This document shows positions 81 to 17,921 of a DNA stretch of 17,921 nucleotides, one piece after another; within the stretch, counting starts at the first letter, position 1; every line of letters begins with the position of its first letter. A program made the translations under genes and the position numbers. The notes under the pieces are model-generated. The model ran no database searches. It saw nothing but the letters and a program-made list of their open reading frames with translations, and was not told the DNA's origin. Location of the stretch: NCBI GenBank assembly GCA_020216655.1, contig JAIWNU010000040.1, positions 1 through 17,921 of the forward strand, written 5' to 3'. Source of the DNA: Treponema sp. (GTDB taxonomy: Bacteria; Spirochaetota; Spirochaetia; Treponematales; Breznakiellaceae).

Positions 81-98
81 AACAAAACTCCTCAGTAA

Positions 99-127: not shown

Positions 128-180
128 ATTTACATCTAGAAAATATGATAAGCATGCCTTTCAATGAATGAAATAAAGAT

Positions 181-209
181 TTGCTTTTACCTCCAAGTCC
201 CTCTATACT
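181..209 (+). promoter_or_regulatory. sigma70-type promoter for the NTF2-SDR-flavoprotein operon
   Basis: TTGCTT (181-186), 17-base spacer, TATACT (204-209). Transcription would start near 216, ahead of the GAGAGG ribosome site at 235-240. This excludes the upstream in-frame TTG at 181 as a start codon and supports ATG 250. Confidence 0.5.
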
Positions 210-249
210 AAGAATCATTACGGAAAAAAGAAAAGAGAGGGACCTATTG

Positions 250-699: not shown

Positions 700-700
700 C

Positions 701-3267: not shown

Positions 3268-3380
3268 CCCTCAAAGAGGCTGCCCCTCGTTGCCCCACTG
3301 TCCCTTCGGTATTTTTCCGCAGTCATTGTGTAAAATTTCCATTTATACTATAAAACTGGCAGCACAGAAGGAGCCAGGCT

Positions 3381-3875: not shown

Positions 3876-5032
3876 GCGAATACGGCGCATTACCGCCCAA
3901 GCCGGCGCAGGGGCCCCGCACCGCCGCCCAGCCAAGCAGCGCTCCCATGAAGCGGATCGGTATCCTGGGCGGCGGCCAGCTTGCCCGCATGCTGGCCTTG
4001 GCGGGCCACAGCCTGGGACTGGAGTTTGCATTCCTTGACCCCGCTCCCGACGCCTGCGCCGCTGCGGTGGCCCGCCAGGTGCGGGGCCCCTACGACGATG
4101 CAGCAAAACTGGAAGAGCTCGCTTCCTGGGCAGATATTATCACCTATGAGTTCGAAAATGTGCCGGCCCAGGCGGTCCGGTTTTTGGAGGAAGGCCGGCG
4201 GCTGGTCTATCCCCCGGCAGAAGCCCTGGCCGTATCCCGGGACCGGCTTTCGGAAAAGACGCTTTTTACCGAGCTTGGTATTCCTACCCCGGCCTTTGCG
4301 GCCATAGAAAGCCTTTCGGATCTTGAGGCGGCGGTAAAAACTATTGGACTTCCTGCGGTATTAAAAACGCGAACCCTGGGCTATGACGGCAAGGGCCAGT
4401 CGGTGCTTCGCCGCACCGAAGACTGTGCCGCCGCCTGGGCTCATATTCAAGGTCGGAGCGCCATCCTCGAAGCCTTTGTGCCCTTTACCCGGGAAGTTTC
4501 GATTATTGCTGTCCGGAGCAGCACAGGAGAAGAAGCCTTTTATCCCCTGACTGAAAATATACACCGGGAGGGTATCCTCAGGTTCTCCCGTCCCCATGCC
4601 GCTGATCCGCGCCAAGCGGAAGCGGAGTCTTATGCCAGAAAAATTCTGGACCAGCTCGATTATGTCGGGGTCCTTGCCCTCGAGCTTTTTGACACCCCCG
4701 AAGCTCTGGTGGCCAACGAGACTGCCCCTCGGGTTCACAATTCGGGCCACTGGACCATAGAAGGGGCCTATACAAGCCAGTTCGAAAACCACCTGCGGGC
4801 TATTCTGGGGCTTCCTTTGGGTCGTACCGACCTGCGGGGGAGCGCTGCCATGGTAAACTGCATCGGAAGCTTGCCAAAGCGGGAAGAAATTCTTGCCATA
4901 CCGGGGGCCCACTATCACGATTATGGCAAGGAAGCACGTCCCGGCCGCAAGGTGGGCCACTATACGCTGTCCGCCGCAAGCGACGATGAGCTTGATGAGC
5001 TTATTCGGCGCTTTGTACCGTCATCAATATAA
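3872..5032 (+). CDS. purK: N5-carboxyaminoimidazole ribonucleotide synthase, PurK
   Basis: 386 residues; ATP-grasp enzyme that uses ATP and bicarbonate to carboxylate AIR to N5-CAIR, the substrate of PurE. Seen: the nucleotide-fold start [20 protein letters not shown], the ATP-grasp loop [24 protein letters not shown] and the metal/ATP block [14 protein letters not shown] near the C-terminal third, ending with the typical [11 protein letters not shown]. The first 25 residues (Ala/Pro-rich) precede the point where PurK proteins usually begin ([13 protein letters not shown] 3947). The longer start is preferred because GGGAGG sits four bases upstream and it overlaps purE in ATGA, while ATG 3947 has no ribosome site. 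The extension is therefore probably real, but ATG 3947 remains possible. Confidence 0.95.
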
Positions 5033-5804
5033 ATCCCCCTATGACGCCCAGCTTCCAGAGCCAGGTATGGCGGCAGATTATCCAGTTTATGTTTCGCCGC
5101 AAGGCCCTATTGTGCTGTATTTTCATGGAGGGGTCTATGTTCTTGGGTCTATCGAGTCATCTCTCCTTTTGTGCGCCCCCCTGGCGGAAGCCCTGTCGCT
5201 TCCGATGTTCCTGTTCGAATACCGGCTTGCGCCGGAACATCCCTATCCGGCCGCATTGGATGACGCCCTCGCGGCCTATCACTGGCTCCGCTCCAGCGGG
5301 TATCAGGGTGAGCAGATTGTGTTTCTGGGAGATTCGGCTGGCGGGGGCCTCGCGTTGGCCGCAGCCATGGCTCTGCGCGACAGGGACGAGCCCTTGCCGG
5401 GAGCGCTCCTCCTTTACTCTCCCTGGACTGACCTGACAAACTCAAGCGATTCCCACCGCACGAACGCTGGCCGAGACGTGATGCTGACTACCGGCATGCT
5501 CCAGCGCTGGGCTCGATCCTATGCTGGGTCTCGGCCCCTCGATGATCCATATATCTCCCCCCGTTTTGGATCCTTTAAGGATCTCCCGCCCATACTTATC
5601 CAGGTTGATGAAAGTGAAATCTTTTTAGATGACAGCCGTTCAGTCGCCGACGCGGCTCGTGCCGCTGGGGTTCCTGTGGAACTGGAGATATGGCAGGGTC
5701 TCTGGCATGTGTGGCCAGCGGTGGGAACCATGATTCCCGAAACGATGCTCTCTTTTCAGCGTATAAAGGATTTTTTAAGCCCCTTTCTCAAATATACAAA
5801 CTAG
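4986..5804 (+). CDS. Alpha/beta hydrolase, hormone-sensitive-lipase-like (family IV)
   Basis: Serine hydrolase probably acting on esters. From ATG 4986 it is 272 residues: the oxyanion motif HGG at 47-49, EYRLAPEHPYPAALDD soon after, the nucleophile elbow GDSAGG at 115-120 (Ser117), an acidic cluster DESEIFLDD, and the catalytic His241 in GLWHVWP. These are diagnostic of the HSL/acetyl-esterase family. The start is uncertain: ATG 4986 and 4995 lie inside the end of purK in another frame, ATG 5067 lies after it, and none has a good ribosome site. The N-terminal cap region is shorter than usual for the family. It follows purK with an overlap, so coupling is likely. Its stop overlaps that of the convergent radical SAM gene. 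Confidence 0.85.
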   Translation: MSLMSLFGALYRHQYKSPYDAQLPEPGMAADYPVYVSPQGPIVLYFHGGVYVLGSIESSLLLCAPLAEALSLPMFLFEYRLAPEHPYPAALDDALAAYHWLRSSGYQGEQIVFLGDSAGGGLALAAAMALRDRDEPLPGALLLYSPWTDLTNSSDSHRTNAGRDVMLTTGMLQRWARSYAGSRPLDDPYISPRFGSFKDLPPILIQVDESEIFLDDSRSVADAARAAGVPVELEIWQGLWHVWPAVGTMIPETMLSFQRIKDFLSPFLKYTN

Positions 5805-6727
5805 ACAAAAACCTCGACCGGAATAGTATAAGGCGCCAGTTTCTGTATCAGAGAGGCCCGGCGCTCAAGAAGATACGCTTCGTTAACCGGTTCGGCCAGG
5901 GGGTCCTCCGGTGCGGGGCGGGCCTTCCCGTAAAGCTGCAGGCGCTGGGGACCGGGCCGCGGCGGAGGTACAGTGCTTGATAGTTCCACTAAACGGCGGA
6001 CCAGGTTTTCCCAGGCCTGGACTTCTTCCTGCGGAGCTGGTTGGCCGCCGATTTTACATACCATGGTCTGGATCACAAAGGGGGCCCGCCCCGCAAAGTC
6101 CTCGATGGCCCGGCACAGGCTATCAAAACTAATGGCGGAGCGGTTTATGTTCCGGTACCAGGCTTCGGTTCCCGCATCGACCTTAAGCCAGATTTCAAGC
6201 TCTTTCCCTGTCCCGCTGAAAGGTTCCATTACTCCCCTGGCTGCAGCGGCCAGGAAATTTGCCGTTTCTGGATCAAGAAGCCCGGTACCGTTAGTAATGA
6301 GTACCAGTTTTGCCTGTGGATACAATTCGTTCCGCAGCCGCCCGGCCATTTCAAGGGCCGGCCTCAAGGCTGGATGCAGGGTAGGCTCTCCATTGCCCGA
6401 AAATGAAAGGTCCTTTACATTCAGGTTTGTGCTAGTCTCCGAAGGAGAAAAAACTGGGTCAGAACGAAGTCCTTGGCTCCCATCCATATTCAGCGCCGCA
6501 GCAAATTCCCGCAGGCCCCGCTCCAGGGCTGGGAGCGAAAATTGTATGTCCGAGGTAAAGGGGAACACCTCGCAATAGGGGCAGTCAAAACTGCAGGTCT
6601 TTTTGTCCGGGAAGAGGTTAATGCCTATCGAAAGGCCTCGGGCCCTGCGGGATATGACAGGATAGACAATAGCTCCCGCTTCCCGGTCAAGCCGGTGGTC
6701 TTGGGCAGAACGAATGGTAAGCGCCAT
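5801..6727 (-). CDS. Radical SAM protein (COG0731-like)
   Basis: 308 residues. The cluster-binding motif is C45-x3-C49-x2-C52 within TCSFDCPYCE, which would hold a 4Fe-4S cluster and S-adenosylmethionine. A SFSGNGEPTLHP block (SAM-binding GGE-like motif) and LVLITNGTGL follow, as in the COG0731 group of Fe-S oxidoreductases related to wyosine-type enzymes. The spacing GINLFPDKKTCSFDCPYC is characteristic of that group, whose substrates are mostly unknown. The C terminus ends with PYTIPVEVFV. The ATG at 6727 has no strong ribosome site; a TATAGT hexamer just upstream on the minus strand would put the transcript start close to the codon. Convergent with the hydrolase, with the two stop codons sharing CTAG. 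Confidence 0.88.
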   Translation of the reverse strand: MALTIRSAQDHRLDREAGAIVYPVISRRARGLSIGINLFPDKKTCSFDCPYCEVFPFTSDIQFSLPALERGLREFAAALNMDGSQGLRSDPVFSPSETSTNLNVKDLSFSGNGEPTLHPALRPALEMAGRLRNELYPQAKLVLITNGTGLLDPETANFLAAAARGVMEPFSGTGKELEIWLKVDAGTEAWYRNINRSAISFDSLCRAIEDFAGRAPFVIQTMVCKIGGQPAPQEEVQAWENLVRRLVELSSTVPPPRPGPQRLQLYGKARPAPEDPLAEPVNEAYLLERRASLIQKLAPYTIPVEVFV

Positions 6728-6773
6728 ACCGAAACTATACTATTACGGGGACCTTCGGTCGAGCAAAAAAAAC

Positions 6774-6802
6774 TTTACAGCTGCGCCAAGGTAGGCTACA
6801 AT
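6774..6802 (+). promoter_or_regulatory. sigma70-type promoter for the GH5 gene
   Basis: TTTACA (6774-6779), 17-base spacer, TACAAT (6797-6802). A start near 6809 leaves about 49 bases before ATG 6858, with GGGGAG at 6845-6850. Confidence 0.6.
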
Positions 6803-6857
6803 TATATTGGTTGGTAATTATCAATCAATATATGACCGGATAAAGGGGAGCGAACCT

Positions 6858-7886
6858 ATGAAACCCATGTACAAAACAATCGGCATCGTTTTAGCATCAA
6901 TGTTAACGATCATCTCCTGTGCTCCGGACGATCGGTTCCTGGCGGTTGATAAGTCAGGCAAGACGGTGGTGGAACGTTTCGGCCAATTGCAGGTAATGGG
7001 GACCCGCCTTGGTACCCAGGATGGTAAACCGGTGCAGCTCCGGGGCATGAGTTCCTTTGGGCTTCAGTGGGCGGGCAAATATGCTAATGAAGCGGTGATT
7101 CAATGGCTCCGGGACGACTGGAACATGCAGGTATGGCGGGCCGCCATGTACCTGACCCAGGGGGGCTATATTGAAAACCCGGTTATTAAGGAAAAAGTAA
7201 TCAGCTCCATAGAAGCGGCCCTTAAATTGGGGATTTACGTTATCGTAGACTGGCATGTATTAAGTGATAAGAATCCCTTAGTGTACAAGGATAAGGCGAT
7301 CGAGTTTTTTACCGACATAGCCCAAAGGTACGGCACATACCCGAACATTATCTACGAAATCTGCAATGAACCGAATGGCAAGGATGTGACCTGGCAGGGC
7401 CAGATAAAGCCCTATGCGGAGGCTGTCATTGGCGCAATCAGGGCAATAGACCCGGATAATATTATTATTGTGGGCACCCCCAACTGGAGCCAGGATGTGG
7501 ATGTGGCTGCGGAAGATCCCATCAAAGACTACAAAAGCATCATGTATACCCTGCATTTCTATGCGGGGACCCACGGGGAAGAACTGCGGAAAAAGGCTGA
7601 AAAAGCGCTGGCCAAGGGGCTCCCGATTTTTGTTACCGAATGGGGGACCTCCGATGCTTCTGGCGGCGGAGGTTTTTATCCTGATCAGTCCAAAGTATGG
7701 CTTTCGTTCCTGAAAAAACACGGCATTTCATGGGTCAACTGGTCGGTGAACAACAAGGGCGAAGAATCGGGGACCCTGGTATACAACGCCGACCGAGAAG
7801 GAAAGGGCCGCTGGCAGGATGCGGACCTTTCTCCCTCAGGCCGATTTATCCGCAAGGTCCTCAGGAACGAAATACGGATTCCGTAA
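6858..7886 (+). CDS. GH5 endoglucanase (cellulase), probable lipoprotein
   Basis: 342 residues. Glycoside hydrolase family 5 enzymes cut beta-1,4-glucans with retention. Seen: LRGMSSFGLQW at 61-71, VIVDWHVL at 128-135, the acid/base glutamate in ICNEPN (Glu171), HFYAGTH at 233-239, the nucleophile glutamate in FVTEWGTSDASGG (Glu261) and SWVNWSVNNKGEESG. The set matches the GH5_2 bacterial endoglucanase subfamily. The N terminus is a short signal with a relaxed lipobox TIISC (Cys21), so the protein is probably lipid-anchored on the outer face of a membrane. There is no carbohydrate-binding module. ATG 6858 is chosen because GGGGAG lies seven bases upstream; in-frame codons before it would add residues ahead of the signal peptide. 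Confidence 0.93.
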   Translation: MKPMYKTIGIVLASMLTIISCAPDDRFLAVDKSGKTVVERFGQLQVMGTRLGTQDGKPVQLRGMSSFGLQWAGKYANEAVIQWLRDDWNMQVWRAAMYLTQGGYIENPVIKEKVISSIEAALKLGIYVIVDWHVLSDKNPLVYKDKAIEFFTDIAQRYGTYPNIIYEICNEPNGKDVTWQGQIKPYAEAVIGAIRAIDPDNIIIVGTPNWSQDVDVAAEDPIKDYKSIMYTLHFYAGTHGEELRKKAEKALAKGLPIFVTEWGTSDASGGGGFYPDQSKVWLSFLKKHGISWVNWSVNNKGEESGTLVYNADREGKGRWQDADLSPSGRFIRKVLRNEIRIP

Positions 7887-7956
7887 AAATTTTAATTTCT
7901 AAGTGGTCATTAAAACAAAAGCTTTATTTTGGTCTCTTCAATTAACTAAAAACTCA

Positions 7957-7985
7957 TTGGTGAAATTTAATAAATTAGATATAAT
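7957..7985 (+). promoter_or_regulatory. sigma70-type promoter for the chemoreceptor gene
   Basis: TTGGTG (7957-7962), 17-base spacer, perfect TATAAT (7980-7985). It lies in the AT-rich 149-base gap between the GH5 and chemoreceptor genes, where no intrinsic terminator is evident. I see no sigma28 (TAAA-N15-GCCGATAA) site. Confidence 0.55.
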
Positions 7986-8035
7986 TGTAGTCAATATTGT
8001 ATACAGAGCTGTCTATTAGCTCTATAGGAGTCATT

Positions 8036-10123
8036 ATGACTATTCAAAGACGCATCAGTATTGTTGCTATATTATCAATTTTAATTGCCGTTTTTCTTGC
8101 CTTAAGTGTTGCTACTTTTCCTATCATGACCTATATCGAAAAACGGTTTTATGACCAAGTACCCCATATGCTCAACTCAATAAAGATTGATATTCAAACT
8201 GAAATTGCCCGAGGAACAGAAGCCTCCCTCTCTTTTGCTCGCAATCCGGCTCTTATAGACTGGATTAAATCCGGAGAAAAGGACCAAAAACTTACGGCAA
8301 TTATGACCGCTACCATGGCAGAACTGGCAACACGGAAAGGTTTTACTACTTCTTTTGCTGCCAGTACTGTTACGGGAGCCTTTTATGACAAGGGTAAATA
8401 TCTCAACACCCTCACAAAGAGTGATCCTGATGATAGCTGGTTTTTTGATAGCCTTTCATCTCCAGAAGATGTGCTGCTCAACGTGGATTATAACGCCAAA
8501 CTCGATTCTACTCTGCTTTGGTTTAATGCACTTGTCCGTGACAATGGGAATGCTATTGGTATCGCTGGTATCGGAATATCTTTAACAGATGTGGTCCGTC
8601 AGTTTAAAGACTCAGAACCAAGTAAAAACAGTGTAGTATTGCTCTGTGATAATACAGATACGATTCTCATTACCAGTCTTGATGAAAATAATAAAACAAA
8701 ATTAAGTGACTTTGTTCCCTCAACAGTGCAAACAATAAAAGGTTATGAAGGTTTGCGATCCTTTATGCAAAAAGGACAAAAACTAATTGTCGCACAATCG
8801 CCAATAAAGAATAGCCGCTACACCATATATGCAATCATGCCAATTAATGATTTTTTACCCACTTTATGGGAAATAAATGGTCTTGCGATACTGGTTGCTA
8901 TCATTCTTGCGGTACTTATTACGTTTATTTTGCAACTATTTTTACGATTCTCATTTAAGAACCTCCGCAAATTGCAGGATGCCCTTCATGACATCGCAAG
9001 CGGTAACGGTGATTTAACCAAACGGATTGAGGTGACAAATGATGAAGTAGGTTTGGTTTCTGACAGATTTAATACTTTCGTCCATAATCTGCAATCCATG
9101 GTTGCTGAAATACGGAACGCTATAGATAAAGCCAAGTCACTCAATACTAGCATTCTCCAATCGAACCATGAAAGCAGCGTTGCCATGGTAGAAATTGCAG
9201 AAAACATCAAGGCTATCAACGAACGGTCTATTTCTCTGGATACGAACATGGATGAATCTAAAAACAAAGCTAGCGAGATTATCCAATCGGTGAACCAGTA
9301 CGGAAACCGTATTGTAGAGCAATCAGCCATGGTGCAGCAATCAACATCTGCGATTGTGGAAATGCAGGCTTCTATAAAAAATCTTTCGGAACTTTCGGAG
9401 AAAAAAAACAAAACAGTAGCTCAGTTGGTAGAAGTAGCGCAGGATGGCGGCAAATCATTAGAAGAAACCAAGGCATCCTTTAAAGAACTTATCGAGAAAC
9501 GTATGCAGGCCATTAGCGATATGAACCAACTGGTCGCTAAAGTTGCGGCCCAGACAAACCTTCTTGCCATGAACGCCGCGATCGAGGCCGCTCATGCAGG
9601 TGAACATGGGGCAGGATTTGCTGTTGTGGCCGATGAAATACGGAACCTGGCCGAAGCTACCGCCACAAATGCGAAGAATATAAGCCTTGCAATTAAGGCT
9701 ATGAAGGATGGGGTGGACCTGACCGGACATACTATAGACAAGAATCTAGAACTTTTTGCCGCTATCGAGCAGGAAGTACAATCCATGGGGAATAGTTTTA
9801 GCGAGATCTTCCATGCCCTCAAAGAAATTGCAGTGAGCAGCGAACAGGTCATGCAAGCTATGAATCGGCTTAATGATTATACAAGCGGAGTCAAGGATGA
9901 TGTTCATCGGGTCGATGAAAATACACGGCTGCTTGCGGATATCTTTGATACGGTAAAGAACCTCTCCTCCGAAATACGAAACGGAATCACCGAGGTTGCC
10001 GCCGGTACCAATGAAATCCGCGACGCTATTCATCTTCTCAACGAGCTGAACCAGCAGTTTACGGATCAGTTCCAGACGATTATCGATCAGGTCCAGAGTT
10101 TTAAAATTGATGAGAACAACTGA
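8036..10123 (+). CDS. Methyl-accepting chemotaxis protein (transmembrane chemoreceptor)
   Basis: 695 residues. A first membrane segment (about 7-29), an extracytoplasmic sensor of about 245 residues compatible with a double-Cache domain, a second membrane segment (about 282-304), a HAMP linker (about 303-357, ending with FNTFVHNLQSMV) and a long helical signalling domain. The kinase-contact hairpin tip is at 503-540 and reads AQTNLLAMNAAIEAAHAGEH then GAGFAVVADEIRNLAE, intact compared with the family consensus. No C-terminal NWETF-type CheR/CheB tether is present. The ATG at 8036 has AGGAG five bases upstream; TTG 7997 is rejected. The first two thirds are visibly richer in A+T than neighbouring genes. 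Its ligand is unknown; adjacency to a cellulase makes a sugar-related cue possible but this is only inference. Confidence 0.95.
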   Translation: MTIQRRISIVAILSILIAVFLALSVATFPIMTYIEKRFYDQVPHMLNSIKIDIQTEIARGTEASLSFARNPALIDWIKSGEKDQKLTAIMTATMAELATRKGFTTSFAASTVTGAFYDKGKYLNTLTKSDPDDSWFFDSLSSPEDVLLNVDYNAKLDSTLLWFNALVRDNGNAIGIAGIGISLTDVVRQFKDSEPSKNSVVLLCDNTDTILITSLDENNKTKLSDFVPSTVQTIKGYEGLRSFMQKGQKLIVAQSPIKNSRYTIYAIMPINDFLPTLWEINGLAILVAIILAVLITFILQLFLRFSFKNLRKLQDALHDIASGNGDLTKRIEVTNDEVGLVSDRFNTFVHNLQSMVAEIRNAIDKAKSLNTSILQSNHESSVAMVEIAENIKAINERSISLDTNMDESKNKASEIIQSVNQYGNRIVEQSAMVQQSTSAIVEMQASIKNLSELSEKKNKTVAQLVEVAQDGGKSLEETKASFKELIEKRMQAISDMNQLVAKVAAQTNLLAMNAAIEAAHAGEHGAGFAVVADEIRNLAEATATNAKNISLAIKAMKDGVDLTGHTIDKNLELFAAIEQEVQSMGNSFSEIFHALKEIAVSSEQVMQAMNRLNDYTSGVKDDVHRVDENTRLLADIFDTVKNLSSEIRNGITEVAAGTNEIRDAIHLLNELNQQFTDQFQTIIDQVQSFKIDENN

Positions 10124-11440
10124 TTAACGCTCCATTTTCACCCTGCTTTCGGCGCTTCGGCGGTGGGCATCCAGGCCTTCCGCCCGGGCTATGACGGCGG
10201 CGGCCCGGCGGCTTGCTTCAAAGCCAGCGCCGGGGGCACAGCGGAGGCTTGTCACGGTTTTGATAAAGTGCCGTACCGAAAGGCCGCCGGTAAAGCGGGC
10301 GCTGCCTGAGGTGGGAAGCGTATGGTTTATCCCCGCCGAATAGTCTCCCAGCACCTCCGCCGCCAAAGCCCCTGCAAACAGGGAACCGTAGTTTCTGAGT
10401 CTTGGTATGATGGCTTCTGCTTTTTTTAGATGCAGTTCCAGGTGTTCCGGGGCGATCGTATTGGCGATGCGGACCGCCTCATCCATTGATGTATAGATAA
10501 CAATGAGTCCACCGGCATCCAAGGATGCGCGGGCCGTTTCTGCGGTGCTCAGCGTTCCAAGCTGTTTTTCCAGGGCTGCCGTTACCCTATCCGCCATGGC
10601 CCGGTCTGGCACGAGGAGCCTTGCCCGGGCGTCCGGGTCATGTTCCGCCTGGGCAAGCAGGTCCGCGGCGATAAGTTCAGGCTCGGCATCTCCGTCGGCG
10701 ATGATAAGTACATCTGTAGGGCCCGCCACAAAGTCTATGCCCACTTGGCCGAAAAGAATGAGTTTGGCCGCGGCTACATACTTGTTCCCTGGCCCTACAA
10801 TAACATCGCAGCGGGGTACCGATTCGGTGCCAAAGGCCGCCGCCGCAATAGCCTGGGCGCCGCCGGTGGCAAATATGCGGTCCGCCCCGGCGAGGGCTGC
10901 CGCTGCAAGGATCCGCCGGTCGGGCTTACCGTCCTCTAAGGGCGGCGAGAGGAGAACCACTTCAGCGACCCCAGCCACCTTAGCGGGGATGACTCCCATG
11001 AGGACCGTAGAAATGAGGGGGAAGCGGCCTGCGGGCACATAGACCGCAGCCCGTTCAACCGGAATACAGCGCTGACCCGTAAAAAGCCCGGGCTCTAGTT
11101 CGGTCTCAAAGTCGGCAAACTGTTTTTTCTGAAGTTCCGCAAAACGCCTGATATGGTCAGACGCAAGGCGGAGAGCGGCTGTGAGCTCACTATCAGCTTT
11201 TTCTAGCTCTTCCAATGCATGGCGGGCCTCCGCAGGAGAAACTTTCAAGTGTTCGGGACTTGAGCGGTCAAAGCGGGCTGCATAGTCCCGCAGGGCCCGG
11301 TCTCCGCCGCTTCTGACCTTGGCGATTATATCCCGTACCGTCTCATCAACCCTGTCCAGACCTGTTTCTGCAGCACTCCCTGTGCTGCCTATAGTCTGGC
11401 TCCAATATGCATCAAAATCCTGTGCTGCTATGATCCTCAT
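10124..11440 (-). CDS. hisD: Histidinol dehydrogenase, HisD
   Basis: 438 residues, normal length. A zinc enzyme that oxidises L-histidinol to L-histidine in two NAD-dependent steps, the last of the pathway. Seen: VERAAVYVPAGR, ATGGAQAIAAAAFGTESVP, VGPGNKYVAAAK, the zinc ligands Gln264 and His267 in LAQAEHDPDA, the catalytic Glu332-His333 in APEHLE, Asp366 in GDYSAG and His426 in GLDAHRRS. All key residues are present. The start overlaps the hisC stop by four bases (ATGA). It is the last gene of the operon and its stop codon directly abuts the stop of the convergent chemoreceptor gene, leaving no room for a separate terminator between them. Confidence 0.97.
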   Translation of the reverse strand: MRIIAAQDFDAYWSQTIGSTGSAAETGLDRVDETVRDIIAKVRSGGDRALRDYAARFDRSSPEHLKVSPAEARHALEELEKADSELTAALRLASDHIRRFAELQKKQFADFETELEPGLFTGQRCIPVERAAVYVPAGRFPLISTVLMGVIPAKVAGVAEVVLLSPPLEDGKPDRRILAAAALAGADRIFATGGAQAIAAAAFGTESVPRCDVIVGPGNKYVAAAKLILFGQVGIDFVAGPTDVLIIADGDAEPELIAADLLAQAEHDPDARARLLVPDRAMADRVTAALEKQLGTLSTAETARASLDAGGLIVIYTSMDEAVRIANTIAPEHLELHLKKAEAIIPRLRNYGSLFAGALAAEVLGDYSAGINHTLPTSGSARFTGGLSVRHFIKTVTSLRCAPGAGFEASRRAAAVIARAEGLDAHRRSAESRVKMER

Positions 11441-12546
11441 GTGTTACCCCTGCAAATGCGGACAAAGCTCTCCATCTCTTCGTCGGTGCCGATGCTGACC
11501 CGGAGATACTCGCTGATCCGCGGCTTGTTCCAGTGCCGCACAAGAATTCCCCTGCTGCGGAGGGCCTGGAAAAGCTCCGCCCCAGGCCGCTCTGGGTGAC
11601 GAATAAAAATAAAGTTCGCCGCCGAGGGAATCACTTCAAAGCCGGCTTCTTCAAGGGCCCGTCTTGTATTTTCACGGGTTGCCTCAATTTTGGCTGCCAT
11701 AGCATCGTAATATTCCCGGTCTTCAATGGCTGCCTGGGCGCCTGCCAGGGCAAGCCGGTCCAGGGTGTAGGAATTAAAAGAGTCCTTTATGCGCCGCAGC
11801 CCTTCGATAAGGTCCGGCTGACCCAGGGCGTAACCCACCCGGAGCCCCGCGAGGGAGCGGGACTTGGACAGGGTGTGAACTACGAGCAGGTTGTCATAGC
11901 GCTGCACCTGGTCTGCCATGGACTCGGCGCCGAAATCCACATAGGCTTCATCGATCAGGAGGACGTTCTGTTCCTGTTGATGAAATGCCGCCAGCTCCGT
12001 AAGGGCCCCTTTCCCCAGGGCGCGGCCGGTTGGCGCGTTGGGGTTAGCGAGAACAACGCCGCTGGCAGGGCGCCGGTAATGCGCCGTATCGATTTCGAAT
12101 TTCTCGGTGACGGGAACTGTTTCGTACTCGATATCCCAGAGGTCTGCGTAGACGGGGTAAAAACTATAGGTTATGTCGGGGAAAAGGAGGGGCCGGCGTT
12201 CCATTCTGTCCCGGGACCCAAAAAAGGCGGCAAAGGCAAAGGCGAGAATTTCATCTGACCCGTTGCCCACAAAGACCCAGTCCGCTCCCGGGAGTCCATA
12301 TCGAGCGGCGATAGCGCTTCTTAAGGCGAGGCAGGTCGGGTCCGGATAGAGCCGCAGATCTTCTTGAGCCGCGGCTCGAATTGCTTCGAGTACCTTCGGC
12401 GACGGAGGGTAGGGGTTCTCGTTGGTATTCAGTTTGATGTACCGGCGGTCCCGGGGCTGTTCCCCCGGGGTGTAAGGTTCAAGCCCGGCAACCCTCTTAC
12501 TCCAATAGGGGCTCTTCCCCGTGGTCTTTTCTGTTGGTTCTTTCAT
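11437..12546 (-). CDS. hisC: Histidinol-phosphate aminotransferase, HisC
   Basis: 369 residues, a fold-type I PLP enzyme. It transfers an amino group from glutamate to imidazole-acetol phosphate to give L-histidinol phosphate. Seen: LNTNENPYPPSP at 39-50, FVGNGSDEIL, NPNAPTG at 168-174, LLIDEAYVDF at 196-205 and the PLP-binding lysine K228 in HTLSKSRSLAGLRVGYA. The N terminus has about 20 residues before the first conserved block, which is usual. It overlaps the upstream hisA/I/E gene by four bases (ATGA) and hisD by four bases, so translation of the three is coupled. Confidence 0.96.
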   Translation of the reverse strand: MKEPTEKTTGKSPYWSKRVAGLEPYTPGEQPRDRRYIKLNTNENPYPPSPKVLEAIRAAAQEDLRLYPDPTCLALRSAIAARYGLPGADWVFVGNGSDEILAFAFAAFFGSRDRMERRPLLFPDITYSFYPVYADLWDIEYETVPVTEKFEIDTAHYRRPASGVVLANPNAPTGRALGKGALTELAAFHQQEQNVLLIDEAYVDFGAESMADQVQRYDNLLVVHTLSKSRSLAGLRVGYALGQPDLIEGLRRIKDSFNSYTLDRLALAGAQAAIEDREYYDAMAAKIEATRENTRRALEEAGFEVIPSAANFIFIRHPERPGAELFQALRSRGILVRHWNKPRISEYLRVSIGTDEEMESFVRICRGNT

Positions 12547-13823
12547 TTCTTGTGCCGCCGGTCCAGTTCTGCCATAACCTCAGCCACGGAGACCCCCGCC
12601 CGGGTCATGAGCACCGTGGTAAAATAAAGAAGATCCGCCACTTCCCAGACTATTTCGTCGTGGGTCTTGGCGGTGCAGACTTCCTCCGCCTCTTCCATCA
12701 CCTTTTCCCGGACCCGTTCATCATCCAGGGTAGCCGTATAAGACCCCGGTTTGGGATTGCGGAACCGCTCGGTTACTATGCTTTGCAAAAGCTCCCAGGT
12801 ATAGCGCTGGTCTGTAAAGCAGGTCCAGTTTCCCGTGTGGCAGGTGGGGCCTGAAGGAACCACCGTGGCAAGCAGTGTGTCCCGGTCGCAGTCTGCCCGG
12901 AGCCGCAGCAGTTTGAGGGTGTTTCCCGAACTTTCGCCCTTCATCCAGAGCTTATTGCGGCTCCGGCTATAAAAGCAAAGGTTCCCCCGCTTAAAGGTTT
13001 CTGCCAGGGCTTCCCGGTTGGTGTAGCCCAGCATGAGGACCTGGCCGTCCTCCGCCTGTGCAATGACCGGCAAGAGCTGTTCGGTGCCTGGGCTGGCTCC
13101 CTCTTTGTTCCAGGCAAGACTTGCGATAAAGGCTTCGGCCAGGTTTATTTTGCCCGTGTACAGGGCCATGCCGAGCTGGACATCGCAGCCCAGGCGGGCT
13201 ATAGCTTCGATTTCTTCCAGGCTGGTCACGCCGCCCGCCACGGTTACCAGGCAGGAGACCGATTCCCGCAGGGCCCGGACGCTTTCCAGATTGGTGCCGG
13301 TCATGGTCCCTTCCCGTTCAACGCAGGTATATAAAAGTTCCCCCGCATAGGGCTCCAGGGCCTTGGCGCTTTCTATCAGGGGAAGCCCCGTGGCGGTCTT
13401 CCATCCATCAACCACAATCTCGCCTTCCCGGGCGTCGACTGCCACGATAATGCGTTCCCGGCCGATTTTTTTTGCCAGGGCTTCGAGAAAGTCCTTATTG
13501 ATGCCGAAACTTTCCGGTCCGGTCCGGAATGCCTTTGAGCCGATGATGACCTTTTTGGCCCCCCGGCTTACCAGTTCTGCCGCCCGTTCCACCGTGGCAA
13601 TACCCCCGCCGACCCGGCAGTCGGCCCGGCGGAGCAGGGACTTTACCAGGCTGTCGTTGGAGCCGGTTTTCATGGCCGCATCCAGATCGATGACCGCTAC
13701 CTCTCCATATTTGTCGAATTCCGCCGCCAGGGCCGCCGCATCGTCCCGTTCCAGCATGAGCTGGGAACCTTGCTTAAGCTGCACGACCTTGCCGTTTTGA
13801 ATATCTATCGAAGCTATTACCAT
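12543..13823 (-). CDS. Trifunctional HisA-HisI-HisE fusion: ProFAR isomerase / phosphoribosyl-AMP cyclohydrolase / phosphoribosyl-ATP pyrophosphatase
   Basis: One 426-residue reading frame joins three pathway enzymes. Residues 1 to about 237 form the HisA (beta/alpha)8 isomerase, with Asp7 in [14 protein letters not shown] at 71-75, Asp130 in IIVAVDA, AGGV at 196-199 and GMALYTGK near the end. About 238-340 is His[32 protein letters not shown], and the zinc/metal residues in DCDRDTLL and [11 protein letters not shown]. About 342-426 is His[18 protein letters not shown] and EVADLLYF. HisI-HisE fusion is common; addition of HisA in the same chain is not usual. An AAAGGAG site lies ten bases before the ATG. 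It overlaps hisF by seven bases and hisC by four. The fusion is continuous without stop or shift. Confidence 0.93.
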
Positions 13824-14593
13824 CGTACTCGTACTCCTTTCTGTTCTGCGTAGGTTTTTATTTCCCCTATGGTTGTTTTTCCGAAATGGAGCATGCTGGC
13901 TACCAGGGCCGCATCCGCATTGCCCCCGCCGGGTAAAAGGGCCTCCACAATTTGATCAAGGCTTCCTGCACCGCCAGAGGCAATTACCGGAACGGGGACC
14001 GCTTCCCCAACCCGGCGGGTGAGCTCCAGGTCGTAGCCAGCGCCGGTGCCGTCCGCATCGATAGAATTAAGGAGTATTTCCCCCGCACCGAGCTTAACCG
14101 CATCGACTGCCCACTGAATTGCATCAATCCCCGTATCTTCCCGGCCTCCCTTGGCAAAGGCATGCCAGCGGGGGGCTTCTCCGGGTGCGGACACCCGTTT
14201 TGCGTCTATCGATAGAACGACGCACTGGCTCCCGTAGGCTCGGGCCATATCGGTAAGCAGTGCCGGGTTCCGGAGGGCCGCGGTGCAGACCGATACCTTG
14301 TCTGCCCCGGCGTTCATGGCGAGCCGCATGTCTTCCACCGTACGGATACCCCCTCCGACGCAGAGGGGAATAAAGACTTCCTTGGCAACCTGGAGGACCA
14401 CTTCCAAAAGGGTGTCCCGGCTTTTGTAGGAAGCACCAATGTCAAGGAAGGTAAGCTCATCTGCCCCCTGTTCATTGTAGCGCCGGGCCAGTTCCACCGG
14501 GTCCCCTGCGTCCTTAATTCCTTCAAACTTCACACCCTTGACGACCCGGCCGTCGTCCACGTCCAGGCAGGGAATAATCCGTTTAGCGAGCAT
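13817..14593 (-). CDS. hisF: Imidazole glycerol phosphate synthase, cyclase subunit HisF
   Basis: 258 residues, a complete (beta/alpha)8 barrel. With HisH it uses ammonia to turn PRFAR into imidazole glycerol phosphate and AICAR. The catalytic acids Asp11 ([15 protein letters not shown]) and Asp130 (VVLSIDAKR) are present, as are the phosphate-binding VGGGIRT at 79-85 and [10 protein letters not shown] near the C terminus, and [17 protein letters not shown]. The start codon lies 11 bases inside the end of hisH, so the two subunits of the heterodimer are made from overlapping cistrons. Confidence 0.97.
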
Positions 14594-15251
14594 GATACAC
14601 CTCGGACCAGCGGCGCAGGAGTTCGAGTCCCAGGGCTCCCGATTTTTCCGGATGAAACTGGACCGCCGCGAGGGCTCCCCGTTCTACTGCGCTGCAGTAT
14701 GTTCCATAGTAATCCGCTTCGGCGGCGGTCCAGCCCTCCTCCGCGGGGACCACATAATAGGAGTGTATATAGTAAAAGAAGGCCCGTTCGGGCAGGTCTC
14801 GAAAAAGACGGGACCGTTCTGCCCCTCGGGTTTCGTTCCAGCCGATTTGGGGCACCTTGGGGCCATTAAATTTCCGCGCCCTTCCTGGAATGACCGAAAG
14901 CCCCCGAATTTCCTGGCCATTAACAGGCGGGGCTTCCTCGCTAGTCTCAAACAGGAGCTGGAGGCCGATACAGATCCCTAAAAAGGGCCTGTCTGCGGCA
15001 ATCCACTCCCGGATGGCATCGCTGTAGCCGGATTTGTTCAGGGCCTCCATGGCAGTGGCAAAGTGACCATCGCCGGGAAAGATAATGGCCGAGTAGGGCG
15101 AGGAAGCCCCGCCAAATCGGGCGGAGCCAAATCGGGCCCTGCCCGATAGTTCCTCGGGCCCGCGGACAAATTGGGCCGGGAGGCCGAGCCGGGCCAAAGC
15201 GTTCATCACCGAACCCAGGTTTCCCGCCCCGTAGTTAATGACTCCAATCAC
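14583..15251 (-). CDS. hisH: Imidazole glycerol phosphate synthase, glutamine amidotransferase subunit HisH
   Basis: 222 residues, class I glutaminase that supplies ammonia to HisF. The start is a GTG at 15251 that overlaps the hisB stop (GTGA). Seen: [12 protein letters not shown] at 4-15, the nucleophile Cys94 in [10 protein letters not shown], the catalytic His200 and Glu202 in VQFHPEKSG, and PQIGWNE at 134-140. Two departures from the family pattern: the usual PGVG oxyanion motif reads PGDG (59-62), and residues about 38-52 form an insertion with a short internal repeat (RFGSARFGG). Otherwise complete and expected to be functional. Confidence 0.95.
15111..15137. repeat. Two in-frame direct repeats of GCCAAATCGGGC inside hisH
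   Basis: The 12-base unit occurs at 15111-15122 and 15126-15137, a period of 15 bases, so the duplication keeps the frame and produces the [10 protein letters not shown] repeat in HisH. It looks like a recent slippage duplication in a surface loop just before the PGDG motif. Confidence 0.8.
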
Positions 15252-15853
15252 GCGAGGACCCCCTTGGTGGAGGGAATCTGGCCCGCAGCGCGGCTGTCGA
15301 CCTCGCAGGCTTCCCGCAGGGCCCGGGCCGCGGCCTTAAAGAGGGCCTCGATTTTGTGGTGGTCGCTGCGCCCCCGCAGTATGTCCAGGTGGAGGGCGCA
15401 GCCCGCATTGCTTGCAAAGCCGAGCCAGAAATCCTCCACCGTATCGGTCTGAAAGCTCGCCCCGGTGGAAACCAGGGGGAGGCCGCTCAAGGAGGCCTCA
15501 AAGACGAGGAAGGGCCTTCCGGAAAGGTCTACCGCGGCCCGGGCCAGGGTTTCATCCATGGGAAAAAGGCAGCTCCCTACCCGGACAATGCCCCGCTTGT
15601 CACCCAGCGCCTTGGCAAAGGCCTGGCCCAGGACTATGCCCACATCTTCCACCAGGTGGTGCTGGTCCACCTCCAGGTCTCCCCGGGCGCTCAGGTCTAG
15701 GTCAAAAAGCCCGTGCTTGGCAAAGGTGGTAAGCATGTGGGTGAGGAACCCCACCGGGCAGTCGATACGGCTGGTTCCCGTTCCATCAATATTCAGTCTG
15801 AGCTGTATATCCGTTTCCCCGGTTTTCCGTGAAATTTCCGCAATCCGTTCCAT
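15248..15853 (-). CDS. hisB: Imidazoleglycerol-phosphate dehydratase, HisB (monofunctional)
   Basis: 201 residues, the size of the dehydratase alone. It removes water from imidazole glycerol phosphate to give imidazole-acetol phosphate in a manganese-dependent reaction. The metal-binding repeats are HHLVED at 65-70 and DHHKIEALFKAAARALR at 164-180; GFLTHMLTTFAKHG and DETLARAAVDLSGRP also match. There is no N-terminal HAD phosphatase domain as in the enterobacterial fused HisB, so histidinol-phosphate phosphatase must be elsewhere. GGGAGGG lies four bases before the ATG; hisG ends 15 bases upstream and the stop overlaps hisH. Confidence 0.96.
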   Translation of the reverse strand: MERIAEISRKTGETDIQLRLNIDGTGTSRIDCPVGFLTHMLTTFAKHGLFDLDLSARGDLEVDQHHLVEDVGIVLGQAFAKALGDKRGIVRVGSCLFPMDETLARAAVDLSGRPFLVFEASLSGLPLVSTGASFQTDTVEDFWLGFASNAGCALHLDILRGRSDHHKIEALFKAAARALREACEVDSRAAGQIPSTKGVLA

Positions 15854-15868
15854 AGGCCCTCCCGCCCA

Positions 15869-16723
15869 TCAGGGCACTACCTTCCGCAGTTCGTATTCCA
15901 CAATGTCTGTGGCGCCGAGTTTCTTGAGTTTCGGGATCAGGACCGGCACTTCGTGACGGGAAACTGCCACTTTGACCGCATAGCCGTCGTCTCCGTACAG
16001 GGGCGCAATGGTGGGGCTCCGCATGGCAGGAAGCCCCGCCACCAGGTCGGGGAAGCGGATCTTGTTCACATTCATTTCGAGCATGACCTTTTCCCTGCCG
16101 TCCAGCACGGCCTTAAAGAGCATCACCAGTTCCTCAATCTGTGCCTTCTTTTCGGGGTCCGCCATGGCCGCCCGGGATGCCACAAAACGGGTCGATGACT
16201 CAAGGACCGTATCCACAATGCGAAGCCCATTGTCCCGCAGGGTCTGTCCCGTGGATGTGTTGTCCACAATCATGTCCGCGTCATCAGGGGGGAAAACCTC
16301 GGTGGCTCCGTAGGTCCTGAGGATGCGGAAATCGTAGCCCTTTTTAGTAAGCCATTCTCGGGCCAGGTTCACATATTCGGTAGCCACCACGAGCTTTTTA
16401 CCCTTCAGGGCAGCCTCGTCCATTTCGTTTGGTACCGCCGCTACAATCCGCACCCGGTCAAAGCCCAGGTCCATAACCTCCACTACATCGGACCCGGTTT
16501 CCCGAATCCAGTCGATGCCAGTAAAACCCGCGTCATGGCTCCCGATTTCCAGGAGTTCCCCGACGTTTTGTGGTTTCATGACCTTGCCGTCTAGCCAGTC
16601 AGCGGCGATGCTCGGCCGGTAGGTCCGTTCCGAAAGACTAATCGGTATCCCCGCCTCCGCAAAAAGCCGCGCTACATTGTCAAAAATCCGTCCCTTGGGT
16701 ATCAGAATCCGCAACTTTCCCAT
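15869..16723 (-). CDS. hisG: ATP phosphoribosyltransferase, HisG long form
   Basis: 284 residues. The committed step: ATP and PRPP are joined to phosphoribosyl-ATP. The length and a C-terminal domain of about 80 residues (containing LPAMRSPTIAPLYGDDGYAVKV in part and ending LKKLGATDIVEYELRKVV) identify the long, homo-hexameric form that carries its own histidine-feedback domain and needs no HisZ. The PRPP loop is at about 148-163 (ADMIVDNTSTGQTL). LRILIPKGRI opens the protein. The ATG at 16723 follows an AAGGAG site by five bases. It is the first enzyme gene behind a 390-base leader that holds the leader peptide, attenuator and further hairpins. Confidence 0.96.
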   Translation of the reverse strand: MGKLRILIPKGRIFDNVARLFAEAGIPISLSERTYRPSIAADWLDGKVMKPQNVGELLEIGSHDAGFTGIDWIRETGSDVVEVMDLGFDRVRIVAAVPNEMDEAALKGKKLVVATEYVNLAREWLTKKGYDFRILRTYGATEVFPPDDADMIVDNTSTGQTLRDNGLRIVDTVLESSTRFVASRAAMADPEKKAQIEELVMLFKAVLDGREKVMLEMNVNKIRFPDLVAGLPAMRSPTIAPLYGDDGYAVKVAVSRHEVPVLIPKLKKLGATDIVEYELRKVVP

Positions 16724-16748
16724 ACATACTCCTTGTGCAGTAAGAATA

Positions 16749-16799
16749 CGGGGGGCGCCATTGGTACGTCATGAAGACGTGCATCAGACGCGCCCCCCG
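16749..16799 (-). repeat. Long perfect hairpin just upstream of hisG
   Basis: CGGGGGGCGC at 16749-16758 is the exact reverse complement of 16790-16799, a 10-bp all G+C stem. The 31-base loop contains a second inverted repeat, ACGTC (16766-16770) with GACGT (16776-16780). On the his transcript it ends about 25 bases before the hisG start and is followed by only scattered T residues (GTATTCTTAC), so it is not a classical terminator. It could protect or process the mRNA, pause polymerase, or be part of a mobile palindromic repeat. Confidence 0.7.
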
Positions 16800-16980
16800 C
16801 CGCTAACCCGTCGGGACTTCCGGGGCCTTGCCGGATACGGCACCGGCTTTCTACGCTCCGGTGCTATTCCGTTGTCCCGCCGGTTTTGCGGCCCCCCACA
16901 ACCTTGGAGGGGCTGGGTAATCACCCTCTCCCCGAGGGCTGCCTTCTTTAGGCCGCTTCCCTGGGAGGGGGCTTTAAGGG
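16799..16980 (-). other. Highly structured untranslated his leader segment of unknown function
   Basis: No credible gene lies in these bases, but inverted repeats are dense. Nested helices 16799-16803/16888-16892, 16805-16808/16882-16885 and 16812-16817/16874-16879 enclose two hairpins, 16819-16823/16831-16835 and 16840-16846/16858-16864, giving a three-way-junction-like shape. Further small hairpins are seen at 16891-16913, 16915-16926, 16924-16938, 16941-16953 and 16959-16969. It matches no riboswitch, T-box, SRP RNA or RNase P consensus that I recognise. It may be a structured RNA element of the leader or a chromosomal repeat element inserted there. Pairings were found by eye and not energy-tested. 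Confidence 0.5.
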
Positions 16981-16983
16981 CAT

Positions 16984-17017
16984 AAAAAAAGCCGTGGACC
17001 CCATAGAGCCCACGGCT
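16984..17017 (-). terminator. Intrinsic terminator/attenuator of the his operon
   Basis: On the minus strand AGCCGTGG (17017-17010) and CCACGGCT (16997-16990) form a perfect 8-bp stem around a 12-base loop, followed immediately by a T7 run (16990-16984). It lies 38 bases after the leader-peptide stop codon and about 260 bases before hisG, so it must act as a conditional terminator for the operon. Confidence 0.85.
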
Positions 17018-17059
17018 GTATATGCCGAATAGAACCGCAATGCGGCACCGGACCCTATG
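17002..17059 (-). promoter_or_regulatory. Candidate antiterminator pairing of the his attenuator
   Basis: CATAGGGTCC (17059-17050), which begins in the last sense codon and covers the leader stop codon, can pair over ten positions (two of them G-U) with GGGCTCTATG (17011-17002). The second strand covers most of the terminator loop and its top two base pairs. A weaker alternative is 17024-17027 with 17013-17016, against the outer stem, which itself competes with 17043-17048/17022-17027. A ribosome stalled at the His codons leaves 17050-17059 free; one at the stop codon covers it. Found by eye. Confidence 0.5.
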
Positions 17060-17099
17060 CCCCCCAAGATGAGTACCCATGATGATGATGGTGGTTCAT
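17055..17099 (-). CDS. hisL: his operon leader peptide with five consecutive histidines
   Basis: ATG at 17099 opens a 14-residue ORF, MNHHHHHGYSSWGA, stop TAG at 17055-17057. The His codons (CAC then four CAT) occupy 17079-17093. A second in-frame ATG at 17114 would give MKRITMNHHHHHGYSSWGA and coincides with the predicted transcript start; neither start has a strong ribosome site (CGGA lies about eight bases before ATG 17099). The position directly behind a promoter and ahead of an intrinsic terminator and hisG is the architecture of a control peptide for ribosome-mediated attenuation: scarce charged tRNA-His stalls translation and lets polymerase read on into the operon. The peptide itself probably has no other role. 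Confidence 0.88.
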   Translation of the reverse strand: MNHHHHHGYSSWGA

Positions 17100-17120
17100 A
17101 GTAATCCGTTTCATATAAAT

Positions 17121-17149
17121 ATACTATCGGTATGCAAAAAATATGTCAA
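17121..17149 (-). promoter_or_regulatory. his operon promoter
   Basis: On the minus strand a perfect TTGACA (17144-17149), 17-base spacer and TAGTAT (17121-17126). Transcription should start near 17114, about 15 bases before the leader-peptide ATG at 17099. Confidence 0.75.
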
Positions 17150-17193
17150 GGGGTGTATAAATATGCAATAATACATTTTTTAGGTGGAGGGCT

Positions 17194-17222
17194 TTGTTTT
17201 GTCATAAAAATCCTGATAGGAT
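17194..17222 (+). promoter_or_regulatory. Possible promoter of the XRE-cupin gene
   Basis: TTGTTT (17194-17199), 17-base spacer, TAGGAT (17217-17222). Both hexamers deviate from consensus. It would start near 17229 and leave about 30 bases before ATG 17260. Confidence 0.35.
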
Positions 17223-17223
17223 T
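17209..17223. promoter_or_regulatory. Inverted repeat AATCCT-GAT-AGGATT, possible operator
   Basis: Six-base arms 17209-17214 and 17218-17223 around GAT form a perfect palindrome that overlaps the proposed -10 of the XRE-cupin gene. HTH_3 proteins often bind such sites as dimers, so autorepression is plausible but not shown. Confidence 0.35.
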
Positions 17224-17259
17224 CTCCATAAATGCGGTTGAGATAAAGGAAGGAACTAT

Positions 17260-17832
17260 ATGGCAGAATACGACAAGGTGGGTGAACGGATCCGGAAGGT
17301 TCGGGAATCGCGGAAAATTACGACGGCAGATTTGGCAGAACGGGCAGGATTGAATCCGGATTTGGTAGCGGGACTGGAAAACAATGAGATGCCGCCGTCC
17401 CTGGCGCCGCTCATTAAAATTGCCCGGGTTTTGGGAGTGCGGCTGGGAACCTTTCTGGATGATGTGGATTCCCTCGGTCCTGTTATTTCACGGGCAGATT
17501 CTCCGGTAAAGGCGGTGCGGTTTGCAGGCAGCACAGGAGCCGTATCGGGAGAATTAGATTTTTATTCCCTGGCTCACAACAAAGCTGGACGCCACATGGA
17601 ACCCTTTGTCATAGATATTCACGGGTCTTCATCAAAAGAAATAAAACCCTCTTCTCATGAAGGGGAGGAATTTATCTATGTGCTGCAGGGTATGGTAGAA
17701 ATTTTTTACGGAAAAGAAACCTACCTGCTCGAGGCGGGGGATTCTATCTATCTCGATTCTATTGTGGATCATCATGTACACAGCAAAAATGGGGAGGCAA
17801 AAATCCTCGCCGTTGTGTATACCCCCTATTAA
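17260..17832 (+). CDS. XRE-family transcriptional regulator with C-terminal cupin domain
   Basis: 190 residues. Residues about 8-65 are an HTH_3 domain (GERIRKVRESRKITTADLAE, then LNPDLVAGLENNE and LIKIARVLGV). Residues about 120-188 are a cupin_2 barrel with SHEGEEFIYVLQG, EAGDSIYLDS and VDHHVHS, suited to binding a small ligand or metal. Proteins of this build usually repress a neighbouring metabolic operon and release DNA on ligand binding. ATG 17260 follows a GGAAGGA site. It is transcribed away from the his operon; nothing in the sequence shows that it regulates his. The target may be the gene that follows, beyond the window. Confidence 0.92.
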   Translation: MAEYDKVGERIRKVRESRKITTADLAERAGLNPDLVAGLENNEMPPSLAPLIKIARVLGVRLGTFLDDVDSLGPVISRADSPVKAVRFAGSTGAVSGELDFYSLAHNKAGRHMEPFVIDIHGSSSKEIKPSSHEGEEFIYVLQGMVEIFYGKETYLLEAGDSIYLDSIVDHHVHSKNGEAKILAVVYTPY

Positions 17833-17921
17833 AAGGAGGCATGATAAAAAGCTCATCCGGGAGGGTCGGTGGATAGAGTATACTGGACCGGAAGACCGGG
17901 ACAGCTAGGTTACTGTTCGTC
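17833..17921 (+). other. Unresolved tail after the XRE-cupin gene
   Basis: An AAGGAGG at 17833-17839 is followed too closely by ATG 17841, whose frame stops after 11 codons (TAG at 17874). A GTG at 17869 with GGAGG four bases upstream opens a frame that stays open to the window end (17 codons, beginning VDRVYWTGRPG). A third frame reads without stop until TAG 17906 but has no good start. A downstream gene probably begins here, but it cannot be identified. Confidence 0.3.

Follow-up and report, generated by a model that had tools for sequence, protein, structure and literature searches.

A probable His-tRNA-sensing attenuator with a predicted leaderless leader peptide in front of the his operon of a Treponema sp.

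Results

The element in front of hisG

In the region upstream of hisG in a Treponema sp. (GenBank assembly GCA_020216655.1, contig JAIWNU010000040.1, positions 1 to 17,921; this whole stretch of 17,921 nucleotides is called the window) an element was found which, as judged from sequence comparison, is very probably a ribosome-mediated transcription attenuator sensing charged tRNA-His and controlling the his operon. A short ORF with five His codons precedes hisGBHF(A-IE)CD and an intrinsic terminator lies between this leader ORF and hisG. The antiterminator is predicted to be mutually exclusive with the terminator, to be freed by a ribosome stalled on the His codons and to be blocked by one at the stop codon. 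The main proof of this putative element is its conservation in the relatives. Its parts, together with the genes behind it, are the following:

17149-17144, minus strand: -35 hexamer TTGACA, kept in the relatives
17126-17121, minus strand: -10 hexamer TAGTAT, 17-nt spacer from the -35 hexamer
17114, minus strand: predicted transcription start, the A of the leader ATG, placed from the 6-nt gap
17114-17055, minus strand: leader ORF, translated MKRITMNHHHHHGYSSWGA, 19 codons and TAG (17057-17055), ATG at 17114-17112
17108-17097, minus strand: segment 1, CGGATTACTATG, partner of segment 2 if the ribosome is absent
17093-17079, minus strand: sensor, five His codons CAC CAT CAT CAT CAT
17059-17050, minus strand: segment 2, the 5' strand of helix A, CATAGGGTCC, including the leader stop codon
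17045-17035, minus strand: hairpin P2 (CCGC-ATT-GCGG), within the three-way junction
17027-17013, minus strand: hairpin P3 (CGGC-N7-GCCG), which in the antiterminator form takes up the base of the terminator 5' arm
17011-17002, minus strand: segment 3, the 3' strand of helix A, GGGCTCTATG, overlapping the top and loop of the terminator
17017-16984, minus strand: intrinsic terminator, segment 3:4, with a 12-bp stem, a TATG loop and T7
16983-16740, minus strand: DNA between the terminator and hisG, single copy, common to G002 and G003
16723-15869, minus strand: hisG, first gene of the operon (TIGR00070, TIGR03455)
15853-10124, minus strand: hisB, hisH, hisF, fused hisA-hisIE, hisC, hisD

The promoter with its 17-nt spacer and the five consecutive His codons were placed correctly by the first-pass annotation of the sequence, which had also described an 8-bp hairpin with T7 and a 10-pair competitor beginning exactly at the leader stop codon. 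The hairpin and the T run exist, but the stem has 12 pairs, i.e. 11 pairs and a closing A-U (17017-17006 with 17001-16990, loop 17005-17002, T run 16990-16984; AGCCGTGGGCTC-TATG-GGGTCCACGGCT and T7). The competitor is real as well, but its first base lies two bases ahead of the stop codon.

A consensus site on its own is weak evidence: at 16700-17300 two promoter-like sites were found vs 0.8 expected, and one terminator vs 0.8 expected. In 400 kb of a complete genome of the same genus (G001), a sample which happened to contain the his leader of that genome, there were two sites at which a promoter is followed after 5-7 nt by a start codon and is combined with a short ORF and a terminator, one of them being the his leader. 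The 135 nt at 16984-17118 gave a folding z of -3.97, and none of 200 dinucleotide shuffles was equally low.

The closest named HisG is that of a Gracilinema caldarium MAG (99.6%), in agreement with the spirochaetal lineage which had been supposed from the letters alone; the other named hits include Breznakiella homolactica and many Treponema MAGs. The family of the genome we take to be Breznakiellaceae. In the operon HisA is fused to HisI-HisE in one protein of 426 aa (12543-13823, minus strand), and a divergent gene for an HTH-cupin regulator (17260-17829, plus strand) is located directly beyond the leader promoter.

The intervening DNA at 16740-16983 makes this region approx. 180 nt longer than in G001. 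By eye, the G002 copy of the insert has the same ends and a different hairpin-forming centre. The insert is possibly a mobile or recombination element.

Conservation and distribution

Altogether 111 hisG loci were fetched, of which 96 were distinct by their last 150 nt upstream and three of these were too short. A terminator was found upstream of hisG in 45 of the 93 distinct, sufficiently long sequences and 48 were without one; 44 loci were carried forward, as one with a clear His leader (L038) was lost by a later pattern. It had been suggested in the first-pass annotation that related genomes should carry conserved His-codon runs in this place, and this is the case: at least three His codons within six were present in 37 of the 44 terminator-bearing loci, while the other seven fall short. 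The leaders of the relatives include MKRIFAHHHHHHGFSLRGA, MKRIFEARGHHHHGYSFYPESGVVAT, MNLIFVPGSHHHHVFLQTPGSGAR and MKEIRHHHHFYSFLPETGAV. Apart from the His codons and a short motif at the N-terminus they have little in common, and the rest of the peptide drifts. The distance from the T run to hisG is 9-15 nt in many loci and 260 nt in the window.

A covariance model (R1) was built from loci of the same family as the genomes searched, and therefore many of its hits arise by construction. Within the family R1 matched 62 of 195 genomes (in 32 of 56 genera), including 16 of the 42 more complete ones, and gave no match in 133 and 26 of these sets, respectively. Of its 65 matches in the family 60 lie before his genes: 56 before hisG, plus those of G012 and G033 before hisG by coordinates, and, by eye, one before hisB (L158) and one upstream of hisG at L155. 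Two matches precede an aminotransferase gene with an alanine-rich leader. Three others (L162, L168, L170; E 3e-4 to 7e-3) have no his gene behind them and were taken as chance. At L155 (G019:C74:79268-81877) an apparent group II intron reverse transcriptase ORF is seen by eye between the his attenuator and hisG.

Order-wide, R1 matched 49 of 291 genomes, 41 in this family and 8 outside it, the latter only at E 9e-4 to 9e-3. In the other families of the order, for which 15 of 16 hisG matches were fetched, a His-rich leader preceded hisG in 7/7 loci of family f4, 5/5 of f5 and 0/3 of f3. The f4 and f5 leaders (L193, L195-L205) differ in sequence (e.g. LHHHGHHSAA); by eye, GC-rich hairpins with T runs are located downstream of them, and they start about 6-10 nt after a -10-like hexamer. 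Searching Rfam gave no match among 16 related loci at E up to 1.

In the phylum hisG was present in 97 of the 120 genomes searched. Among the best-scoring 29 hisG loci besides that of the window, a His-rich leader was detected by the pattern used in none of the 22 outside the order, in none of the six from f3 and in the single one from f5. His leaders thus look old within the order, and among the loci examined none was seen in the rest of the phylum.

Covariation of the segments

The duplex energy of segments 2 and 3 averaged -15.05 kcal/mol for cognate combinations, both segments being taken from one locus, vs -11.65 kcal/mol for non-cognate ones, taken from two loci (39 loci; z -8.4, 0/20,000 permutations). 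The terminator's own arms gave z -7.2 in the cognate test, and segments 1 and 2 gave -12.6 vs -10.2 kcal/mol (37 loci; z -5.2, 0/20,000). A control region further upstream reached z -2.6 (38 loci, 120/20,000 permutations), which is the baseline from relatedness or composition. Individually, p 0.05 was reached by 19 of 44 loci for segments 2 and 3 against dinucleotide shuffles and by 20 of 40 loci for segments 1 and 2.

Of the 44 loci, 30 were chosen as the rows of an alignment (A1) and the rest were omitted as less clear. In A1 the outer pairs of helix A are misplaced where the loop is short, and for the pair of columns 23-97 no pairing is present in 12 of 17 cells. On A1 the antiterminator had 83.7% of its cells paired vs 28.5-47.7% when slid, and the terminator 97.2% vs 27.8-48.1%. 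The covariation score of the antiterminator was 0.220 vs 0.032-0.091 for the slid versions, and 4 of 500 shuffles reached 0.220. Compensatory changes had been anticipated by the first-pass annotation for both stems, and pairs changed on both sides were indeed found in helix A (5/10) and in the terminator (5/11) as well as in P2 (3/5), but over the 30 rows of A1 there was none in P3 (0/5). The both-sides count of the antiterminator, 8, is weak evidence, since slid versions gave 3-8 and 51 of 500 shuffles reached 8. Since no pair of P3 is changed on both sides, its support is conserved complementarity (90.6% of cells) and folding; the 3' strand of P3 is fixed by the terminator.

The control of the his operon by His codons, which the first-pass annotation had proposed, is supported by the retention of these codons while the peptide drifts, by the covariation of 2:3 and 3:4 and by the position of the element before hisG.

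Antiterminator and segment 1

Helix A consists of CATAGGGTCC paired with GGGCTCTATG and encloses P2 and P3. According to the model the antiterminator is a three-way junction in which helix A takes the top and the loop of the terminator and P3 takes its base. In P3 the GCCG from the base of the terminator 5' arm is paired, so that helix A and P3 together hold the whole arm. The junction is found again in relatives, where the strands of helix A are often 35-38 nt apart, and is absent from the predicted fold of some of their loci. Helix A changes as a unit across the loci (CATAGGGTCC/GGGCTCTATG, CCCGGAATCC/GGATTCCGGG, TGAGTCC/GGACTCA, TGCCGGAA/TTCCGGCA). The register of P2 in the window and the other Gracilinema rows differs from that in the remaining relatives.

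In segment 1 the Lys-Arg-Ile codons, (A)CGGAUU, have as their partner the end of segment 2, which reads (G)GGUCCG or AAUCCG; the pairing in the window is that of CGGATT-A-CTATG (17108-17097) with CATAGGGTCCG. Since this 5' segment pairs with the 5' strand of helix A, the classical 1:2 / 2:3 / 3:4 logic applies, and as read from the sequences the element follows the classical scheme of four segments, of which segment 1 comes first from the 5' end. A geometry deviating from it had been proposed on first reading. Helix A does take only the loop and the top of the stem, as stated there, but segment 1 exists and the base of the arm is taken by P3.

The distance from the last His codon to segment 2 has a median of 14 nt (range 1-23, 40 loci) and is only 1-2 nt in four of the 40 (L011, L021, L078, L081). 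The stop codon follows the end of segment 2 at a median of 9 nt; in 10 of 40 loci it lies inside or before segment 2, and in two of 40 (L070, L091) the reading frame continues 63-66 nt beyond segment 2. By these distances the median spacings would fit a ribosome covering segment 2 when it is at the stop codon and leaving it uncovered when on the His codons.

The multi-branched fold of the antiterminator is what one would also find if a T-box or a ligand-binding riboswitch controlled the terminator. We regard this explanation as very remote, because no Rfam family reached its gathering score in the window, no Rfam T-box model was among the window's matches at E<=10, and the 5' strand of helix A coincides in most loci with the last codons or the stop codon of the leader, so translation must disturb this helix. 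The attenuator read by a ribosome is therefore retained as the preferred reading.

Start of the leader transcript

The leader mRNA is predicted to be leaderless, because the conserved start of the ORF lies only 6 nt past the -10 box. For all 44 loci the DNA upstream of the densest His codons was searched for its strongest TTGACA-like promoter, blind to start codons. Fourteen loci were left out, seven with too few His codons and seven without a promoter at the cut-off (the sequence of one of the latter, L012, begins two bases before the ATG), and the 30 testable loci include the window and three loci of the same genus. In all 30 the first in-frame start codon follows the -10 box at 6 nt (21 loci), 7 nt (8 loci) or 8 nt (one locus). 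In the window six bases separate TAGTAT from the leader ATG, and with such a gap of 6 the A of AUG falls on the usual +1.

The same spacing was observed in front of other genes. Among 299 ORFs of at least 150 aa in the 400 kb of G001, a full promoter was located 6 nt before the ATG in 11 and 7 nt before it in 4, and 0-3 full promoters were counted at every other gap. In the window's genome the strict promoter-ATG pattern was found 15 times vs 3 times for the reversed pattern. Apart from the leader there were 14 such sites; 13 open frames of at least 92 aa, most of which extend beyond the fetched stretch, and one is an ATG-stop. The genus thus seems to use leaderless initiation for other genes too, as far as promoter spacing can indicate it. 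At loci that have no attenuator (e.g. L056, L080, L085, L095) a -10-like hexamer is seen by eye 6-7 nt before the ATG of hisG, so hisG itself may be leaderless there.

The 14-codon ORF reported in the first-pass annotation is present, but it opens with an in-frame Met (ATG at 17099) inside the conserved frame, whose start is found five codons earlier, at 17114. The same attenuator could in principle be translated from this internal ATG, on a transcript with a normal 5' leader, since the codon is in frame and only two codons upstream of the His codons. This is improbable in our judgement: no Shine-Dalgarno sequence is visible by eye in front of it, 28 of the 36 leaders compared (with the promoter-ATG gap restricted to 5-8 nt) have no internal Met, and both the constant gap of 6-8 nt in 30/30 loci and the clustering of promoters 6-7 nt before ATG in G001, as well as the 13 of 14 open frames behind the other strict-pattern sites, argue against it. 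Initiation at 17114 on a leaderless mRNA is preferred.

An alanine leader relative

A related arrangement was found upstream of a PRK06855-type aminotransferase gene. At three loci, L163, L169 and L229, the last of which is in the window's own genome, a leader ending in LAAAAAI-x-E(D/G)R(G/V) is followed by a terminator and the aminotransferase:

G000:C230:5231-6475 and upstream: L229, aminotransferase with the alanine leader

An alanine-rich leader was present in nine of the ten aminotransferase loci examined (L221-L230), and by eye the tenth (L230) has four Ala codons and a stop at the corresponding position. One example is MFIQFCMTNSISLAAAAAIPEDRG, the exact start of which is uncertain; in L224, L225 and L227 an ATG is seen by eye 6 nt after CATACT. 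Segment 2 of the alanine version, GGAGGATCGCGG, can by eye pair with the whole 5' arm of the terminator, CCGTGGTCCTCC, which is the classical form. The aminotransferase was absent in 6 of 16 genomes searched at E 1e-60. The alanine codons of the leader suggest that the PRK06855-type aminotransferase may make alanine.

Folding at the decision point and the proposed mechanism

The decision point was modelled with the polymerase just past segment 3. In the window helix A had a probability of 1.00 for each of the five His codons as the ribosome's position, of 0.00 for the stop codon and of 0.21 in the absence of a ribosome. The mean upstream pairing of segment 3 over 40 loci was 0.79 for the first His codon, 0.71 for the last His codon, 0.44 for the stop and 0.61 without ribosome. 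The value for the first His codon exceeded that for the stop by >0.2 in 23 of the 40 loci, the reverse was seen in 2 and no clear difference in 15 (Wilcoxon p 3e-6); for the last His codon the excess was found in 20/40 and the reverse in 4. The no-ribosome value was below that of the first His codon by >0.2 in 14 of 40 loci, with the reverse in 2, thus a strong 1:2 default is not universal. The folding check proposed in the first-pass annotation therefore gave a divided result: the decision point fits a switch, but in the full-length fold the terminator prevails (0.98) whatever the state of the ribosome, the stalled one included. Since the full-length terminator wins in all states, the switch must be kinetic.

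From the elements themselves, their conservation, the covariation of 1:2, 2:3 and 3:4 and the predicted folding we infer a start site, ribosome stalling, termination and read-through as follows. RNA polymerase would start on the A of the leader AUG or right beside it, and a ribosome would load on the leaderless 5' end. When His-tRNA is ample, the ribosome would reach the stop codon and cover segment 2, the terminator 3:4 would form and transcription would end at T7. When it is scarce, the ribosome would stall on the His codons, covering segment 1 and freeing segment 2, and the three-way junction of helix A, P2 and P3 would hold the whole 5' arm of the terminator, so that the polymerase could read into hisG. 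If no ribosome is present segment 1 would pair with segment 2, and termination would be the default in this genus.

The preference of equilibrium folding for the terminator in all states would also be expected from a constitutive partial terminator next to a His-rich, metal-binding peptide unrelated to control, and runs of His can bind metals. Such a terminator would not need the covariation observed among segments 1, 2 and 3; moreover, the peptides share hardly more than the His codons and their N-terminal motif, the element keeps its place in front of his genes and a version with an alanine run precedes an aminotransferase. For these reasons we consider this explanation highly improbable and keep the attenuator with a kinetic switch.

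Discussion

On balance we lean to the wider view that one order of Spirochaetota has separately evolved leaderless attenuators, for histidine and alanine at least, in which ribosomes at a 5'-AUG would displace segment 1 as well as begin the sensor peptide, and the antiterminator would be a three-way junction instead of a simple hairpin. Such a system adds a phylum to the range of leader-peptide attenuation and provides an RNA family with a branched antiterminator, the main helices of which are backed by covariation. It would couple attenuation to leaderless initiation, and, as with the alanine leader, the sensor codons can hint at the function of an enzyme.

In the enterobacterial his operon, which starts with hisG, runs of His codons in the leader peptide couple the charging of tRNA-His to termination. 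The element of the window has in common with that attenuator (RF00514, His_leader) the run of His codons in a leader peptide, the mutually exclusive terminator and antiterminator and hisG as first gene. A comparison with this Rfam family, proposed in the first-pass annotation, did not place the window in it: the element scored 15.1 bits vs a gathering score of 49 (E 6.7). It also differs in its predicted leaderless start and in the three-way junction of the antiterminator.

According to the excerpts of PMC2965389 considered here, leader-peptide systems were known in 2010 only from Proteobacteria and Actinobacteria, and bacilli were then added, with a His leader before hisS/hisZ. Excerpts of a work from 2022 (PMC9413887) describe His-leader attenuators in Firmicutes, namely in the Bacillus cereus group, Peptostreptococcaceae and Lutispora, and Erysipelotrichales. 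As far as these portions go, the Firmicutes and bacilli leaders are likewise His-rich, lie outside Proteobacteria and were found by comparative genomics; they belong to another phylum, and no leaderless start or three-way junction is described in these portions. Neither of the two texts contains a word beginning with 'spiroch'. Spirochaetes genomes were analysed for new RNAs in PMC8632094, according to the portion of that article used. In the open-licence PMC literature, subscription papers being outside the scope, no spirochaetal leader-peptide attenuator was found, and in the open-licence PMC texts the combination of a three-way junction, a leader peptide and an antiterminator was not found either.

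Leaderless leader peptides are described, in the extracts used, for trpL of Sinorhizobium meliloti (PMC7298713) and for leuL, trpL and ilvL of Streptomyces lividans (PMC8079986), and an alanine leader before alaS is listed in the extract of the latter. By these extracts the S. meliloti and S. lividans leaders share with the spirochaetal one a transcript beginning at the start codon of an attenuator leader peptide; they concern other amino acids and phyla, and the spirochaetal start site is a predicted one. As far as the literature was searched, the attenuator is thus new for the phylum and the kind of system is already known, the predicted leaderless start and the predicted branched antiterminator being the features of this variant.
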